The translations under genes and the position numbers were made by a program. The notes beneath the pieces were generated by a model, which worked only from the letters and a program-made list of their open reading frames with translations, did not search any database and was not told the origin of the DNA. From assembly GCA_018241665.1 (NCBI GenBank), contig JAFEDK010000025.1:62001-126000 (forward strand): a stretch of DNA of 64,000 nucleotides, written 5' to 3'. Shown piece by piece: positions 15,790-49,889 of the stretch. Each line of letters opens with the position of its first letter. Positions within the stretch are counted from its first letter, which is position 1. This DNA is from Pseudomonadota bacterium (GTDB lineage: Bacteria; Pseudomonadota; Gammaproteobacteria; Burkholderiales; Rhodocyclaceae).

Positions 15790-16173
15790 TCAATGCCGGG
15801 AGAATAGGTCGCGGATCTTGCAGAGGGTGGTGGTGATGTCGAAGCGCGGGTCGGGCAGCGCCTCGCCGGCCAGGATGCGGGCCAACGCGGCGTCGGGCTG
15901 TTGCTCGCCGGTCAGCAGTACCTCGGCGCCGCGCTTCGCCATGTGGCGCACAAAGCCGTCGCCGGCGCTGGCGGCGATGACCACTTCGATGCCGTCGAGC
16001 GGATGCGGGCCGTCGTCCTCGAAGTGATGCAGGACCTGCTCGCGGGCCAGCACGATGGCGTTCGGGGCGGGCAGCGGCGAGCCGGGGATGCAGTCGTAGA
16101 TCAGCCAGTTGCGGGCCTGGCCGGCATGGCCGGCGACGTGCTGCTCGCCGGTGACGGGAATGGCGATCTTCAT
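15790..16173 (-). CDS. NifX/NifB-C-like nitrogenase cofactor-binding domain protein
   Basis: 127 aa, a single dinitrogenase iron-molybdenum-cofactor domain: MKIAIPVTG at the start, HAGQARNWLIYD, then IEVVIAASAGDGFVRHMAKRGAEVLLTGE. The fold is shared by NifX, NafY and the NifB C-terminus, which bind FeMo-co or its precursors. It lies 14 bp downstream of nifZ and shares its sigma-54 promoter. A precise nif name cannot be given from sequence alone; VnfX/NafY-like or NifB-tail-like are all possible. Confidence 0.82.
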   Translation of the reverse strand: MKIAIPVTGEQHVAGHAGQARNWLIYDCIPGSPLPAPNAIVLAREQVLHHFEDDGPHPLDGIEVVIAASAGDGFVRHMAKRGAEVLLTGEQQPDAALARILAGEALPDPRFDITTTLCKIRDLFSRH

Positions 16174-16187
16174 CGGCAGGGCTCCGC

Positions 16188-16472
16188 TCAGTGGGTTGCG
16201 CGCAGCTCGGCCGCTTCGGCCTCGTCCTGGGTCAGCTCCTCGGGCAGGCAGCCGATCGGCAGGCCAAGGTCTTGGCCTTCGCCCTCGAAGCGCACCAGGT
16301 AGATCTCCTCGCTGGGCATCGCTTCCACGTGGCCGAACTGGACGACCACGCCGCGGGTGCCGGCGGCGGCGATCAGCGCGCCTTCCTCATAGCCGGGCAG
16401 ACCGCCGTCGTTGAACAGGTCTTCGCGGCAGAACACCACGTCTCCGAGCTGGTATTGGACGATGTCTTCCAT
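16188..16472 (-). CDS. nifZ: Nitrogen fixation protein NifZ
   Basis: 94 aa. The characteristic start is Y-Q-L-G-D-V-V-F, followed by DLFNDGGLPGYEEGALIAAAGTRGVVVQFGHVE and the EIYLVRFEG strand. NifZ helps assemble or mature the P-clusters of the MoFe protein. This copy has the short form without a long C-terminal tail. Its start is 38 nt from a near-perfect sigma-54 element at 16510-16526 on the same strand. The NifX-like gene follows in the same transcript. Confidence 0.88.
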   Translation of the reverse strand: MEDIVQYQLGDVVFCREDLFNDGGLPGYEEGALIAAAGTRGVVVQFGHVEAMPSEEIYLVRFEGEGQDLGLPIGCLPEELTQDEAEAAELRATH

Positions 16473-16509
16473 GGATTTTCTCCGGTTCTAGGTGGTGATG
16501 CGGTAGCGC

Positions 16510-16526
16510 AGCAATTTCGGTGCCAC
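16510..16526 (-). promoter_or_regulatory. Sigma-54 promoter of nifZ
   Basis: Read on the minus strand: GTGGCACCGAAATTGCT, with perfect TGGCAC and TTGCT elements and N7 between TGGC and TTGC. Predicted start is about 16499, 27 nt before the nifZ ATG. No exact TGT-N10-ACA was found upstream within about 200 bp. Confidence 0.8.
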
Positions 16527-16528
16527 GC

Positions 16529-16546
16529 CCGGCACGCTTTTCGCTG
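16529..16546 (+). promoter_or_regulatory. Candidate sigma-54 promoter of the hemerythrin gene
   Basis: CCGGCACGCTTTTCGCTG keeps GG-N10-GC with CGGCACG and TCGCT, two mismatches to consensus. It lies back to back with the nifZ promoter and about 50 nt before the hemerythrin ATG. Confidence 0.45.
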
Positions 16547-16595
16547 CGCCACGGGAGAGTGCCGGCTGGCGGCGCATCTTGATGTGGAGAATGCG

Positions 16596-16982
16596 ATGGA
16601 ATGGTCCGACGAGCGCCACCTGCTTGGCCTGGCGGAAATGGATGAGACCCACCGGGAGTTCGTGGCCCTGGTGAATGCGGCCGGGGCGGCCACCGGCGCA
16701 GCCTTCGTGGAGGCCTTTGCGGCGCTGTGCGCGCACACCGAGACGCACTTTGCCAACGAGGAGACGTGGATGCGCGACAGCGCCTTTCCGGCCGAAGGCG
16801 AGCATGCCGGCGAGCACCGCCGCGTGCTCGGCGACCTGCGGCGTTTCCGCGAGCGGGTCGAAAAGGGCTCGACGATGATGGCCAAGGCCTATATCCGCGA
16901 GCAGGTGCCGGGCTGGTTCGACCTGCATGCGGCAACGATGGATGCGGCGCTGGCGGCGCACCTGAAGGCCCGCGCCGCTTGA
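16596..16982 (+). CDS. Bacteriohemerythrin
   Basis: 128 aa, normal for single-domain hemerythrins. Di-iron ligand motifs are visible in order: DETHREF, HTETHFANEE, GEHAGEHRRVL and WFDLHAATMD. It binds O2 reversibly at a non-heme di-iron site. Its position, divergent from nifZ and close to flavodoxin, suggests O2 buffering or delivery during nitrogen fixation, which is inference. ATG 16596 starts the conserved MEWSDE; longer in-frame extensions upstream overlap the nifZ promoter and are unlikely. Confidence 0.88.
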   Translation: MEWSDERHLLGLAEMDETHREFVALVNAAGAATGAAFVEAFAALCAHTETHFANEETWMRDSAFPAEGEHAGEHRRVLGDLRRFRERVEKGSTMMAKAYIREQVPGWFDLHAATMDAALAAHLKARAA

Positions 16983-17021
16983 TGGGGACCGGCCCGCAGG
17001 GCGCGGGCCGGCGGGCGGGAC

Positions 17022-17465
17022 TCAGCCGCCGAGGACGGCCTCGTAGGCCTTGCGCAGCAGTTCCAGTTCGATCTGCGCGCAGCCGCGGGCTTCGGTGATC
17101 GCCACGAAGCGTCCGCCGGCGCCGGCAATCGTCTCGAAAGGCGGGTCGATGGCGGTGAACATGGCCAGGTGGACCTCGACGCAGGCATCGCCGACATCCA
17201 CGCACTGGCGGAATTCCGGTTCGATCTTGAGCCCGCCGGAAGGCAGGCCGAGGCGCCGCTCGGCTTCCGCCAGATGGACCGACGGCAGCGTGACGACCGG
17301 TGATTCGGGGACTTCCTCGTCCGGGCACAGGCTGGCTGCGGCCGGGAAGGGAGTGAAGCCGCACATGCCGTGCTCGAAGCGCACGAAGCGCAGCCGCGCG
17401 CTGGTGGGATGCTTGTGAGCGAAGATCAGGCGGGCGCCGCCAAAGGTATCGGGGGCGTCACTCAT
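17022..17465 (-). CDS. Conserved hypothetical protein of the nif accessory cluster
   Basis: 147 aa, soluble, with no signal peptide. It starts MSDAPDTFGGARLIFAHKHP. Four or more cysteines occur, but not in a clear metal motif (MCGFTPF, SLCPDEE, RQCVDVGDAC, RGCAQIE). I do not recognise the family. It lies 75 bp downstream of the flavodoxin gene on the same strand and ends the cluster. A hairpin between the two genes may reduce read-through. A role linked to nitrogen fixation is suggested only by position. Confidence 0.7.
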   Translation of the reverse strand: MSDAPDTFGGARLIFAHKHPTSARLRFVRFEHGMCGFTPFPAAASLCPDEEVPESPVVTLPSVHLAEAERRLGLPSGGLKIEPEFRQCVDVGDACVEVHLAMFTAIDPPFETIAGAGGRFVAITEARGCAQIELELLRKAYEAVLGG

Positions 17466-17497
17466 GGACGCCCCCGACCTGTGACATGCCTGACACC

Positions 17498-17534
17498 CGC
17501 CCGCTGTTTGTCGTGTTTACGACAGAGGCGGGCG
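17498..17534 (-). terminator. Hairpin after the flavodoxin gene
   Basis: CGCCCGC pairs with GCGGGCG, and an inner GTCG pairs with CGAC around a TGTTTA loop. It starts 7 bp beyond the flavodoxin stop on the minus strand. There is no strong T-run, so it may be a partial terminator or an mRNA 3'-stabilising structure. Confidence 0.5.
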
Positions 17535-17540
17535 CGGCCA

Positions 17541-18050
17541 TCAGCCAAGCAGTTCCGACTTGACCTGGTCCAGCCAGGTGTCGACGCGCTCTTCGGTCTG
17601 TTCCTTCTGGTTGTCGTTGTCGAGGGCCAGACCGACGAATTCGCCTTCCACCACGGACTTGGACTTGGAGAACTCGTAGTCGTCGGTGGGCCAGCTGCCG
17701 ATGATCGTGGCGCCCTGGGCCTTGGCGGCGTCGTACAGGAGGATCATCGCGTCGCAGAACTCGTGGCCGTAGGCGTCCTGGTCGCCGAAGCCGAAGATGG
17801 CGACGGTTTTCCCAGACAGATCAACGCCCTTGAAGGTCGGGAAGAACTCTTTCCAGGAGTCCACCAGCTCGCCGTCGCCGAGGGTCGGGGTCGCCAGGAT
17901 GAGGGAGCTGAACTTGGCAACGTCGTCGGCGGTGGCCTTGGACACGTTGAACAGCTCGACCACATCTTCGCCGAGCTTTTTCACGATGGACTTGGCCACC
18001 TTGCGGGTGTTGCCCGTCTCGCTACCGTAAAAAAGACCGATCTTGCTCAT
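17541..18050 (-). CDS. nifF: NifF-type long-chain flavodoxin
   Basis: 169 aa. FMN phosphate loop GLFYGSETGNTRKVA at residues 4-18, aromatic loop ILATPTLGDGEL, FGFGDQDAYGHEFCDA, and the long-chain insertion region SWPTDDYEFSKSKSVVEGEFVGLALD, which matches NifF-class flavodoxins. It likely donates electrons to nitrogenase reductase. An AGGAGA ribosome site and an excellent sigma-54 promoter (18101-18117) precede it. It lies within a set of nif accessory genes. Confidence 0.88.
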   Translation of the reverse strand: MSKIGLFYGSETGNTRKVAKSIVKKLGEDVVELFNVSKATADDVAKFSSLILATPTLGDGELVDSWKEFFPTFKGVDLSGKTVAIFGFGDQDAYGHEFCDAMILLYDAAKAQGATIIGSWPTDDYEFSKSKSVVEGEFVGLALDNDNQKEQTEERVDTWLDQVKSELLG

Positions 18051-46957: not shown

Positions 46958-46973
46958 TGTCACGAAGCCGACA
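46958..46973. promoter_or_regulatory. NifA upstream activator sequence
   Basis: TGT-CACGAAGCCG-ACA is an exact TGT-N10-ACA. It is centred about 90 bp upstream of the start predicted from the sigma-54 element at 47028-47044, the standard distance for NifA. Confidence 0.72.
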
Positions 46974-47027
46974 AAATGCGGGCGCTTGTCGGATTTCCGG
47001 GGCGTGCCGGGGGCGATGAGGGGCGGC

Positions 47028-47044
47028 CTGGCCGCGTCTTTGCT
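47028..47044 (+). promoter_or_regulatory. Sigma-54 promoter of the SagB-like operon
   Basis: CTGGCCGCGTCTTTGCT has TGGC-N7-TTGC and a perfect TTGCT at -12. Predicted start is about 47055, 61 nt before the ATG. Confidence 0.75.
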
Positions 47045-47115
47045 CGATGTGCGTGAGCCGGGAGGGTGGGCACCGATCTTGCTGAACCGGGGCGAACCCA
47101 TTTTGCGCCCGCATC

Positions 47116-48717
47116 ATGTCCGAGACTCTCGCCGCTCCGCCCGAGGCCGTTTCTACACCCCCGTCTGCCGCGGCGGTGGTGCAGGCCTACCATCAGCGGA
47201 CCAAGCATCGCTTCGAAGCCTATGCCGCCGGCCCCGGCACGCTGGACTGGGATGCCCAGCCGGCGGCTTTCCGTCACTACGAGGGCGTGCCGCCGATAGC
47301 GCTGCCGCTGGCCCGCGCCGAGCATCTGACGGCGGCGCCGGTGACCCCGGCCATTCCCGATCTGGCCAGCATCGGTGCGCTGCTGCATCTGTCCTTCGGC
47401 CTGACTGCCTGGAAGACCCTCGGGCCCGACCGCTGGGCGGTACGCGCCAATCCGTCGAGCGGCAACCTGCATCCGGTCGAAGCCTACGTGCTGGTGGCCG
47501 GCGTTCCGGCGTTGGCCGACGGGCTTTACCACTACCGGCCGGAGATCCACGCGCTGGAGCTGCGCGCGGTGCATCTGCAGCCGCTGGCGGCCGGCCCGGT
47601 GCTGGCGGTCGGCCTGTCCTGCGTGATGTGGCGGGAGGCCTGGAAGTACGGCGAGCGTGCTTTCCGCTACTGCCAGCTGGATACCGGCCACGCCCAGGCC
47701 TGCCTCGATTACGCGGCGGCCCTGCTGGGCTGGCGGATGGCCGAGCAGCCCCAGGTCGGCAGCCATACGCTGGCGGCCCTGCTGGGGCTGGACCGGGCGG
47801 CCGAGTTCCCTGGCCGGCGCGCCGAGGTCAGTCAGGAGGAGGCGGAGCTGCTGCTGACCGTGGATTTCGCCGGTGGTGCCACCTGGCTGGATCCGCTGGC
47901 CTTGCATGAGGCCGCCGGGGCGGCTCGTTGGCAGGGCGTGGCCAGCCTGATCGACCGCTTCCCGATGTTCCGCTGGCCAGTCATCGCCGAAGTGGCGGCG
48001 GCGACGCGGCGTGCCGACGACAGCGGCGCGGCGCCCAACCCGCAGCGCATCCCGCGCGTGCAGCCGGCGTCCCTGATCCTGCGGCGGCGCAGCGCCCAGC
48101 GCTTCGACCCGGCCCACGTGATGGGGCGGGCCGATTTCGATCACCTGCTGGAAGCCCTGCGCCCGGCGGCGGGCGCGCGCATCGGCCTGCTGATGTTCGT
48201 CCATCGGGTCGAAGGCCTGGCGCCCGGCGTCTACTTCCTGCCCCGTGGGCCTGTCGATGGCGCCATGGCGGCGCGCCTGCAGGCCCGCTACAAGCTGCTG
48301 CCGGTGGCCGGCCTGCCCGCCGCCGACACCCTCTTCAGCCTGGCCCCGGCAGACCCGCTGGAGCTGCGCCGGGTGGCGCGCAGCCTGCACTGCCACCAGG
48401 ACATCGCGTCGAACGCCTGCATCGCCTTCGGCATGCTGGCGCCCTTCGCCGAGCTGGTGGATGCCGATCCGCCGGCCTACCGCGAGCTGTACCGGGAGGC
48501 CGGCGCCCTCGGCCAGGTGCTCTACCTGGAAGCCGAGGCGCTGGGCCTGCGCGGTACCGGCATCGGCTGCTTCTTCGATGACCCGGTGCACGGCGTGGCC
48601 GGTCTCGACGACGGCGCCTTCCAGACCCTTTATCACTTCACCATCGGCCTGCCGGTCAGCGACGGCCGCGTTGAAACCACGCCGCCCTACCCGGGGCGCA
48701 AGGATGTCCTGCGATGA
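47116..48717 (+). CDS. Tandem SagB/ThcOx-like nitroreductase-family flavoprotein
   Basis: 533 aa containing two nitroreductase-like halves. Half one (about 60-270) has RANPSSGNLHPVEAYVLV and LDTGHAQACLDYAAALLGW. Half two (about 310-525) has LILRRRSAQRFDP, LHCHQDIASNACIAFGML and GQVLYLEAEALGLRGTGIGCFFDD. SagB/ThcOx enzymes are FMN oxidases, best known for azoline oxidation in peptide natural products. No precursor peptide or YcaO gene is nearby. The NifA/sigma-54 promoter instead suggests a role during nitrogen fixation. Its stop overlaps the next start by 4 bp. Confidence 0.87.
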   Translation: MSETLAAPPEAVSTPPSAAAVVQAYHQRTKHRFEAYAAGPGTLDWDAQPAAFRHYEGVPPIALPLARAEHLTAAPVTPAIPDLASIGALLHLSFGLTAWKTLGPDRWAVRANPSSGNLHPVEAYVLVAGVPALADGLYHYRPEIHALELRAVHLQPLAAGPVLAVGLSCVMWREAWKYGERAFRYCQLDTGHAQACLDYAAALLGWRMAEQPQVGSHTLAALLGLDRAAEFPGRRAEVSQEEAELLLTVDFAGGATWLDPLALHEAAGAARWQGVASLIDRFPMFRWPVIAEVAAATRRADDSGAAPNPQRIPRVQPASLILRRRSAQRFDPAHVMGRADFDHLLEALRPAAGARIGLLMFVHRVEGLAPGVYFLPRGPVDGAMAARLQARYKLLPVAGLPAADTLFSLAPADPLELRRVARSLHCHQDIASNACIAFGMLAPFAELVDADPPAYRELYREAGALGQVLYLEAEALGLRGTGIGCFFDDPVHGVAGLDDGAFQTLYHFTIGLPVSDGRVETTPPYPGRKDVLR

Positions 48718-49547
48718 GTTCCATGACCACTTCCACTTCTACTGCCACCGGCTTCGTCCGCATCGATGCGGATGCCGCCGCCGATCTGATCCACCGCCGC
48801 GGCAGCGCGACGCTGCCAGCCCTGGCGGTGTTCGACGTGCGCGATCGGGCGACCTTCGAGCGGCGCCACATCACCGGGGCCGAGCACCTCACCGAGGCCC
48901 TGCTCGGCGGCACGATCCGCCGCCTGCCGAAAAGCACGCCGGTGCTGATCTACTGCTACCACGGCAATGCCAGTCAGGTGTATGCGGAGATGTTCTCCGA
49001 TTTCCGCTTCGTCGAGGTGTATAGCGTGGACGGTGGTTTCGAACCCCTCAACGCGGCGCTGGCCCGGCGTACCGGCGGCCTTGCCTCGGTGGCCCTGCCG
49101 GCTGCCGCCAGCGATGCGCTGCGCGCCTTCGTCGCCGAGTTCGACTTCGACCCGAGCGACCTGGACGCGCCGCGCGCCCAGGGGCTCACGCCGCTGATGC
49201 GGGCGGCCTTCGCCGGCTCCGCCGAACTGGTGGACGAACTGCTGGCGGCCGGGGTCAATCCGGCCCGCCGCAACGGCGACGGCAACAACGCCCTGTGGCT
49301 GGCCTGCGTGTCGCGGGACAAGGCGACGCTGGCGCGCCTCATCGCGGCCGGCATCGACGTGGACAACGTCAATGAGACGGGGGCGACCTGCCTGATGTAC
49401 GCGTCTTCAAGCGGCCGGGCCGAGGTGGTCGAGGTACTGCTGGCCGCCGGTGCCGATCCCTACATCCGCAACTTCGACGATGCCCGCGCGGTGGACCTGG
49501 CGTCCACCCTGGCCTGCCTGAAGCTGCTGCGCCACACCGCCAACTGA
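48714..49547 (+). CDS. Rhodanese-ankyrin repeat fusion protein
   Basis: 277 aa. Rhodanese domain about 12-115 with the active loop LIYCYHGNASQVY (Cys81) and HITGAEHL. Ankyrin repeats about 150-275: QGLTPLMRAAFAGSAELVDELLAAGVNPARRNGDGNNALWLACVSRD and on, ending DPYIRNFDDARAVDLA. Rhodaneses carry persulfide sulfur, and ankyrins give protein docking. It is coupled to the SagB-like gene (ATGA overlap). Sulfur delivery to a nitrogenase-related cofactor or to the flavoprotein is speculation. Confidence 0.9.
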   Translation: MSSMTTSTSTATGFVRIDADAAADLIHRRGSATLPALAVFDVRDRATFERRHITGAEHLTEALLGGTIRRLPKSTPVLIYCYHGNASQVYAEMFSDFRFVEVYSVDGGFEPLNAALARRTGGLASVALPAAASDALRAFVAEFDFDPSDLDAPRAQGLTPLMRAAFAGSAELVDELLAAGVNPARRNGDGNNALWLACVSRDKATLARLIAAGIDVDNVNETGATCLMYASSSGRAEVVEVLLAAGADPYIRNFDDARAVDLASTLACLKLLRHTAN

Positions 49548-49571
49548 ACGAAGCCCGACAGGAGAACCGCG

Positions 49572-49889
49572 ATGAACAAGTTCCGCTCGATTGCCTACCT
49601 GATGGAACAGGTGGAAGGACCCTTGTCCCGTGCCGGGGTGGTGGTCAGCGAGGCCTGGCGTGACAACGAGCAGGCGGTGGGCTTCTTCAGCCACGGGGAC
49701 GTCGGGCTGGCAGCCTACGTGTATACCTATGGCCAGACCGCCGGGCGTTATGGCATCAACCTCGATTTCCCGGAGCCGGACGGCTCGCCGCTGCTGCCGG
49801 TGCCGACCAGCGCCGAGAACCTGCCGCTGGCGGCGATCGTGCAGATGCTGCTGGAGCATTTCGAGGTGCCGGTGACGGCGCTGGCCTGA
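49572..49889 (+). CDS. Small conserved hypothetical protein, third gene of the SagB-like operon
   Basis: 105 aa, acidic and soluble, no cysteine. It starts MNKFRSIAYLMEQVEGPL and includes GDVGLAAYVYTYGQTAGRYGINLDFPEP. An AGGAGAAC ribosome site lies 24 bp after the rhodanese-ankyrin stop. I do not recognise the family. Operon position suggests NifA-type co-expression. Confidence 0.75.
   Translation: MNKFRSIAYLMEQVEGPLSRAGVVVSEAWRDNEQAVGFFSHGDVGLAAYVYTYGQTAGRYGINLDFPEPDGSPLLPVPTSAENLPLAAIVQMLLEHFEVPVTALA

Follow-up and report, generated by a model that had tools for sequence, protein, structure and literature searches.

We analyzed a three-gene operon which, with its upstream sites, spans positions 46958-49889 of a 64-kb window (the whole stretch of DNA under study, 64,000 nucleotides of contig JAFEDK010000025.1 from a member of the Rhodocyclaceae). 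The window comes from a 5.43-Mb draft genome, in which the operon's contig is labeled C17. One named relative is Zoogloea sp. LCSB751, whose version of the smallest operon protein is 90% identical. As a first-pass annotation of the window had described, the three genes are tightly linked. All are on the forward strand, and they encode a SagB-like tandem nitroreductase-fold protein of 533 amino acids (47116-48717), a GlpE-like rhodanese with ankyrin repeats of 277 amino acids (48714-49547), and a protein of 105 amino acids (49572-49889). The first two genes overlap by 4 bp (ATGA), and the 24-bp gap before the third contains AGGAG.

The 533-amino-acid protein matches the SagB family (TIGR03605) with 100.9 bits, which exceeds the curated cut-off of 78.4, and its second half contains a nitroreductase domain (PF00881, residues 321-511). 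Across 37 SagB proteins, R110, most of NPSSGNLHP, K177-Y178, R184, C186, H192, C426, and C485 are invariant. Such SagB motifs mark the FMN site, and McbC-type enzymes use the Lys-Tyr pair in catalysis. We predict that the operon's SagB-like protein binds FMN. The 277-amino-acid protein has a rhodanese domain (PF00581, 48 bits versus a cut-off of 22.2) and ankyrin repeats (PF12796), and it matches the GlpE-type model NF001195 below the cut-off (68.6 bits versus 102). Its active-site-type cysteine, Cys81, lies in the loop YCYHGNAS and is kept in all 57 aligned stretches that cover the position, several of which are overlapping loci of one genome. The first-pass calls of a SagB-type enzyme and a rhodanese both have support in the sequence. 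The 105-amino-acid protein has no match in Pfam or NCBIfam, and for its family, a Pfam scan of 25 members and a profile search of the PDB found nothing convincing.

Promoter region

Upstream of the operon is a candidate upstream activating sequence (UAS) for NifA, TGTCACGAAGCCGACA, at 46958-46973. As annotated earlier, it is an exact TGT-N10-ACA. Our preferred candidate for the -24/-12 promoter of sigma-54 is GGGCACCGATCTTGC, on the forward strand at 47068-47082, which is 110 bp from the UAS. Both candidates are in conserved blocks: four Zoogloea-group genomes share two strongly conserved upstream blocks, TGTCAYGAARCCGACA and GGCACCGATCTTGCTGA (47069-47085). The first-pass annotation had proposed a different -24/-12 element, TGGC-N7-TTGC. 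That motif (TGGCCGCGTCTTTGC) is present on the forward strand, but at 47029-47043; the range first given, 47028-47044, is one base too wide on each side. We rejected it as the -24/-12 element because the UAS and GGCACCGATCTTGCTGA are conserved among these close relatives while its TGGC half is not, so it is probably not the promoter. The element was also not reported in the Zoogloea relatives L008 and L009. TTGCTCG, which is part of the same stretch, is conserved in the four genomes. Between the UAS and the promoter, TTGTCGG (46986-46992) and CGTCYTTGCTCG (47035-47046) are conserved in the four genomes as well; these are perhaps half of a UAS or the site of another regulator.

Counts of either motif by itself tell little. 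The window has 6 instances of TGT-N10-ACA versus 4.7 expected, which is no enrichment, and the genome has 235 versus 311 for a reversed control. For TGGC-N7-TTGC, the number in the window exceeds chance (12 versus 3.6 expected, and none of 100 shuffles reached 12), so a single site carries little weight. We also scanned both strands of the window for pairs, that is, a UAS and then a sigma-54 site that scores at least 5/6 at 50-180 bp. There is a single pair, 46958 with 47068. Similar pairs are found in the same genome at nifH and on the divergent nifQ side. The genome encodes NifA (673.9 bits versus a cut-off of 528.85), and it has matches to nifH and nifD that are over their cut-offs.

Distribution of the operon's relatives

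To place the operon, we used a family sample of 199 genomes. SagB (E ≤ 1e-20) was found in 49 of these. There are 93 with a nifD match, which exceeds the curated cut-off in 83 and falls short of it in 10 (G197 matches only at 1.9e-4). In a tree of 55 SagB proteins, 32 rows form a clade with SH-aLRT support of 100 (clade 1), and there is a second group to which Methylococcus is basal. (Trees were built by a quick method, with SH-aLRT as the sole support.) Clade-1 SagB is present in 32 of the 93 genomes with nifD and in none of the 106 without (P = 9e-13, Fisher exact test, although the genomes are not independent). If we accept only nifD matches over the cut-off, then the counts are 31/83 versus 1/116, and the one is G030, which has a partial nifD. 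The second group has a looser association, with nifD in 14 of 19 genomes.

The other two genes show a similar distribution. The rhodanese-ankyrin protein (1e-25) is found in 29 family genomes, all of which are among the 32 with clade-1 SagB. In G049, G062, G108, G133, and G177, the two parts of this protein give separate or partial matches. The small protein matches in 32 genomes at E ≤ 0.01; once 7 weaker ones are dropped (best E < 1e-5), 25 remain, all with nifD, although for G066 nifD is below the cut-off. These results support the link to nitrogen fixation that the first-pass annotation had suggested. Homologous operons that are equally common in non-diazotrophs would have spoken against that annotation; in the family sample they are not equally common.

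The promoter footprint follows clade 1. For the family, we counted a pair if the spacing was 50-160 bp and the score was at least 5/6, with C or T permitted at two positions. Within 600 bp upstream of SagB, 19 of the 32 clade-1 genes have a UAS and sigma-54 pair, versus 0.01 expected from first-order resampling. The 19 are from nine genera (labeled g1, g27, g38, g49, g56, g57, g60, g66, and g67). No pair was found for any of the 22 rows of the sister group, clade 2 (one row is a duplicate, as the Aromatoleum plasmid is the same as G100), or for the single Methylococcus gene. As a control, 7 of 931 600-bp segments from elsewhere in the same loci carry a pair, and all of these are in four g67 loci. 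The stricter motif TGTC-N8-GACA is found upstream of 20 of the 32 clade-1 loci (0.22 expected), and any UAS is found at 25 of 32 (1.75 expected). The last count includes sites at start codons (G133 and G108) as well as unpaired sites, so we rely on the 19 pairs. The earlier proposal of NifA/sigma-54 control is thereby supported by sequence, with a footprint across nine genera.

The neighborhoods of the clade-1 genes point in the same direction. At 11 of the 32 loci, the operon is next to rnf, nifHDK, nifENX, or nifB genes: rnfE/rnfH in four g6 genomes, LRV-nifENX in four g67 genomes, nifHDK in two g62 genomes, and a nifB cluster in G011. (The gene calls behind some of these readings are crude.) On a Methylococcus plasmid, nifHDK is divergent from genes for a globin, a Rieske protein, an ArsC-like protein, SagB, GlpE, and ankyrin repeats. 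In G011, G038, and G032, which represent three genera, SagB, rhodanese, and ankyrin parts are encoded together in a single frame, which is at least 845, 820, or 790 amino acids long, respectively. These fusions are good evidence that the parts work together.

We also examined a class-wide sample of 369 genomes, with SagB at E ≤ 1e-50. SagB was found in 39 and nifD in 32 (we dropped six weak matches, in G305, G223, G304, G317, G419, and G456, and kept G438, which is in two pieces). Both were found in 19 genomes, so the broader SagB family is also present in 20 genomes without nifD. SagB lies within nif clusters in several of the class-level relatives. Apart from G000, there are 38 class-level SagB genomes, and 34 of these are represented in a tree of 89 rows. 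Here, clade 1 groups with Methylococcus and seven class-level rows in a clade of 40 rows (SH-aLRT 97), and every row comes from a nif-bearing genome. The support for this outer clade is fragile: after rows for the other four genomes were added, some of them incomplete, the smallest clade to hold clade 1, Methylococcus, and four class-level rows had 38 rows and a support of 64. Its newcomer, G501, has nifD.

The second-group loci (L108-L126) encode the same tandem SagB enzyme without NifA-type pairs, in genomes with nifD and in genomes without it. The plasmid-borne second-group genes of Aromatoleum, Methylocella, and P. caledonica have no nif annotation in the surrounding 6 kb or so. A fixA-family gene is near the one from Methylocella.

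The association with NifF

The window also encodes a long-chain flavodoxin (17541-18050, reverse strand; TIGR01752, 221.4 bits; PF00258), which we call NifF from its context and distribution. With this protein as the query, we found matches at E ≤ 1e-25 in 41 of the 199 genomes, all of which have nifD. Among genomes with nifD, NifF is present in 31 of the 32 that have clade-1 SagB, versus just 10 of the 61 that do not (P = 7e-15). The same comparison with nifD over the cut-off gives 30/31 versus 9/52, and by genus it gives 14/15 versus 6/24 (P = 4e-5). The second SagB group shows the opposite pattern (NifF in 2/14 versus 39/79), and both of the two also have clade 1.

In some of the genomes, the genes are also close together. 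At 11 of the 32 clade-1 loci, from six genera, nifF is downstream of SagB on the same strand. For G161, G049, and G108, the sequence stops less than 1 kb past SagB; in G161, a separate contig carries the rhodanese-ankyrin, small-protein, and nifF genes. In three Zoogloea-group genomes, the operon is apart from the nif operons but shares its contig with nifF. Relatives of the small protein (E ≤ 0.002) are within 500 bp of nifF and on the same strand at 19 of 27 places. (We typed 34 places, and the 7 weakest, none of which is near nifF, are outside the 27.) The family of the 105-amino-acid protein has a second branch beside nifF, at locus L169. That locus (L169:700-8500) has, in this order, nifA, a transposase-like open reading frame (ORF), a thioredoxin-like 2Fe-2S ferredoxin, a NifZ-like protein, a flavodoxin, the small-protein paralogue, a NifX-like protein, and nifB.

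In the window, the flavodoxin gene is part of a second nif mini-cluster (15790-18050, reverse strand), along with a 147-amino-acid ORF, a NifZ-domain protein (PF04319), and a NifX-like protein (PF02579, under the cut-off). A sigma-54 site, TGGCACCGAAATTGC, precedes the NifZ gene at 16525-16511, and TGT-N10-ACA occurs at 17480 and 17509. A hemerythrin-domain protein is encoded on the opposite strand (16371-16982, forward).

Klebsiella NifF can carry a CoA disulfide on a cysteine, and we considered whether the operon might be involved in thiol modification of NifF. We rejected this idea, as there is no conserved cysteine in NifF from 18 loci and the window.

What the operon might do

Taken alone, the conclusion that the operon is a NifA-controlled nif accessory module is very probable. 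Whether the module serves NifF could go either way, and electron exchange from FMN to FMN is a possible mechanism, but a doubtful one. Our favored explanation, which we consider somewhat probable on the sequence evidence, is that this is a NifA/sigma-54-controlled accessory operon for nitrogen fixation whose products serve electron supply to nitrogenase through the NifF branch. NifA bound at 46958-46973 would activate the sigma-54 promoter at 47068-47082. As an FMN pseudodimer, the tandem SagB protein would exchange electrons either with NifF or with the pool of Rnf and ferredoxin. The rhodanese-ankyrin protein, given its fusion to SagB in three genomes, would bind SagB and provide a persulfide relay or a docking surface, and the 105-amino-acid protein would be a partner of NifF. 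No peptide would be modified. More tentatively still, the operon may encode a dedicated redox partner of the nitrogenase flavodoxin, in which a tandem SagB-type FMN enzyme, in complex with the rhodanese-ankyrin protein and with the small protein as a binder of NifF, would reduce NifF or tune its redox state under NifA control, alongside or downstream of Rnf. Three features had escaped the first-pass annotation: the tie to NifF, which is new here, the fusions of three domains, and the second SagB group without NifA-type pairs.

Several known systems resemble parts of the operon. All 37 aligned members match TIGR03605 at 1e-3, the motifs of the FMN site and the Lys-Tyr pair are shared with the azoline dehydrogenases of the SagB/McbC/ThcOx type (PDB 6gos, 5lq4, and 8pz5), and the profile matches solved chains. 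Unlike those enzymes, the operon protein has two nitroreductase-type halves per chain, no YcaO on its contig, a NifA-type promoter, and nif and nifF neighbors. The solved chain nearest to the SagB profile is 3eo7_A, followed by BmdC, SagB-type/CyaGox chains, and McbC. 3eo7_A is a putative nitroreductase of 511 amino acids, which we take to be from a cyanobacterium; the two halves of the profile both align to it (E = 4e-47), but it has Arg at the position of Lys177. The operon's rhodanese has the CYHGNAS-like active-site loop of GlpE-type rhodaneses, but it shares its chain with ankyrin repeats and, in three genomes, with SagB as well. CoA-disulfide/persulfide reductases with a rhodanese domain combine a flavin enzyme and a rhodanese in one chain, much like the three fusions. 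Their flavoenzyme fold is different, and we consider this to be just an analogy.

Turning to the literature, the ankyrin gene Bphy_7751 of Paraburkholderia phymatum has a log2 fold change of -7.11 in nodules of a nifA mutant, according to the excerpts of PMC8305402. Its protein is 39% identical to ours over residues 146-275, and the gene is beside the nifH of nifHDK. The match is limited to the ankyrin part, and no SagB is annotated in the 12-kb stretch that we inspected. As Bphy_7751 is related in one domain only, the evidence from it is indirect. In Azotobacter vinelandii, excerpts of PMC9542535 describe a nitroreductase, Avin_02400, in a VnfA1-dependent operon. This is another nitroreductase-annotated gene under a nitrogenase-type activator (likened by description, not by sequence), but the regulator is for an alternative nitrogenase and the partner genes are different. 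A nif cluster in the excerpts of PMC3912193 has a "rhodanese domain protein" of 1629 bp, with a globin and a response regulator as neighbors; the length is near that of our SagB gene. The operon is not named in the portions available of PMC3916325, PMC5748707, PMC2820453, PMC7825797, PMC9542535, PMC3912193, and PMC12727197, and the excerpts of open-licence papers among the matches listed have no description of it. Genome annotations already name its parts (nitroreductase family, SagB/ThcOx, or ankyrin).

The main rival to a role with NifF is sulfur supply: the rhodanese would bring sulfane sulfur for the assembly of Fe-S clusters or FeMo-co, SagB would load it by thiol or persulfide redox chemistry, and the tie to NifF would be incidental. 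The rhodanese cysteine, kept in all 57 aligned stretches, fits this idea, as do the SagB-rhodanese-ankyrin fusions, the invariant Cys186, Cys426, and Cys485 of SagB, and the nifENX, nifB, nifS-like, and iscA-like genes in some neighborhoods. However, three clade-1 genomes (G149, G056, and G112) have no rhodanese-ankyrin match at 1e-25, SagB is still beside nifF in G149 and G056, and the co-occurrence with NifF is not accounted for. We view sulfur supply as unlikely. Protection of nitrogenase from oxygen or oxidative stress, by an FMN oxidase that consumes O2 or repairs redox-damaged carriers, seems less likely again. It is suggested by the globin and Rieske-type neighbors in Methylococcus and some class-level relatives, but in the clade-1 family stretches that we searched, globins gave no match and Rieske-type proteins matched only in G063 (other protective enzymes were not searched for).

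We give very little credence to the classical role of SagB/McbC/ThcOx enzymes, as an azole-forming dehydrogenase for ribosomally synthesized and post-translationally modified peptides. The TIGR03605 match above the cut-off and the invariant Lys177-Tyr178 are what that role would predict, but the genome's only YcaO match is on contig C44, so there is no YcaO near the operon, which is on C17. Nor is there a precursor gene between the operon genes, because these overlap or are 24 bp apart. (Short ORFs are present in the flanks.) It is similarly improbable that the promoter motifs arose by chance and that the operon is unrelated to nitrogen fixation. The lack of enrichment of TGT-N10-ACA, the abundance of TGGC-N7-TTGC in the window, and the poor conservation of 47029-47043 speak for chance, but the 19 pairs among 32 clade-1 loci, with 0.01 expected and none among the 22 sister rows, speak against it, as does the absence of clade 1 from the 106 family genomes without nifD.

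Other results weigh against our favored explanation. The strongest point is that both SagB and NifF may be markers of the same kind of nif island, with no interaction between the two. The genomes are also related. In the window, nifF is 29 kb from the operon, and ten genomes with nifD have NifF but no clade-1 SagB. We chose the family pair rule with some of the data already in view. No UAS and sigma-54 pair was found at 13 of the 32 clade-1 loci or at the Methylococcus locus. Of the 13, four are directly behind rnfH/rnfE and could belong to the rnf operon, one (G063) has sequence for just 15 bp upstream, and the other eight have no such explanation. Class-wide, SagB relatives are present in 20 of the 337 genomes without nifD. 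In G439 (L185:4380-9600), a two-piece SagB and a rhodanese-ankyrin gene adjoin nifZ-, iscA-, and nifS-like genes, and there is no nifD match; its nitrogenase genes might be lost or unassembled, or the operon might have another role. The SagB of G439 falls outside the outer clade described above. Finally, structure models built from four-row alignments were unusable (mean pLDDT of 42.8 and 33.6).

To our knowledge, the route of electrons to NifF and ferredoxin in diazotrophs of the Rnf type is incompletely understood. This electron supply matters for the transfer of nitrogenase into new hosts, and a conserved NifA-controlled module that is tied to NifF is a new component that can be tested directly. 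If our favored explanation is true, then enzymes of the SagB family would gain a role outside of peptide modification.

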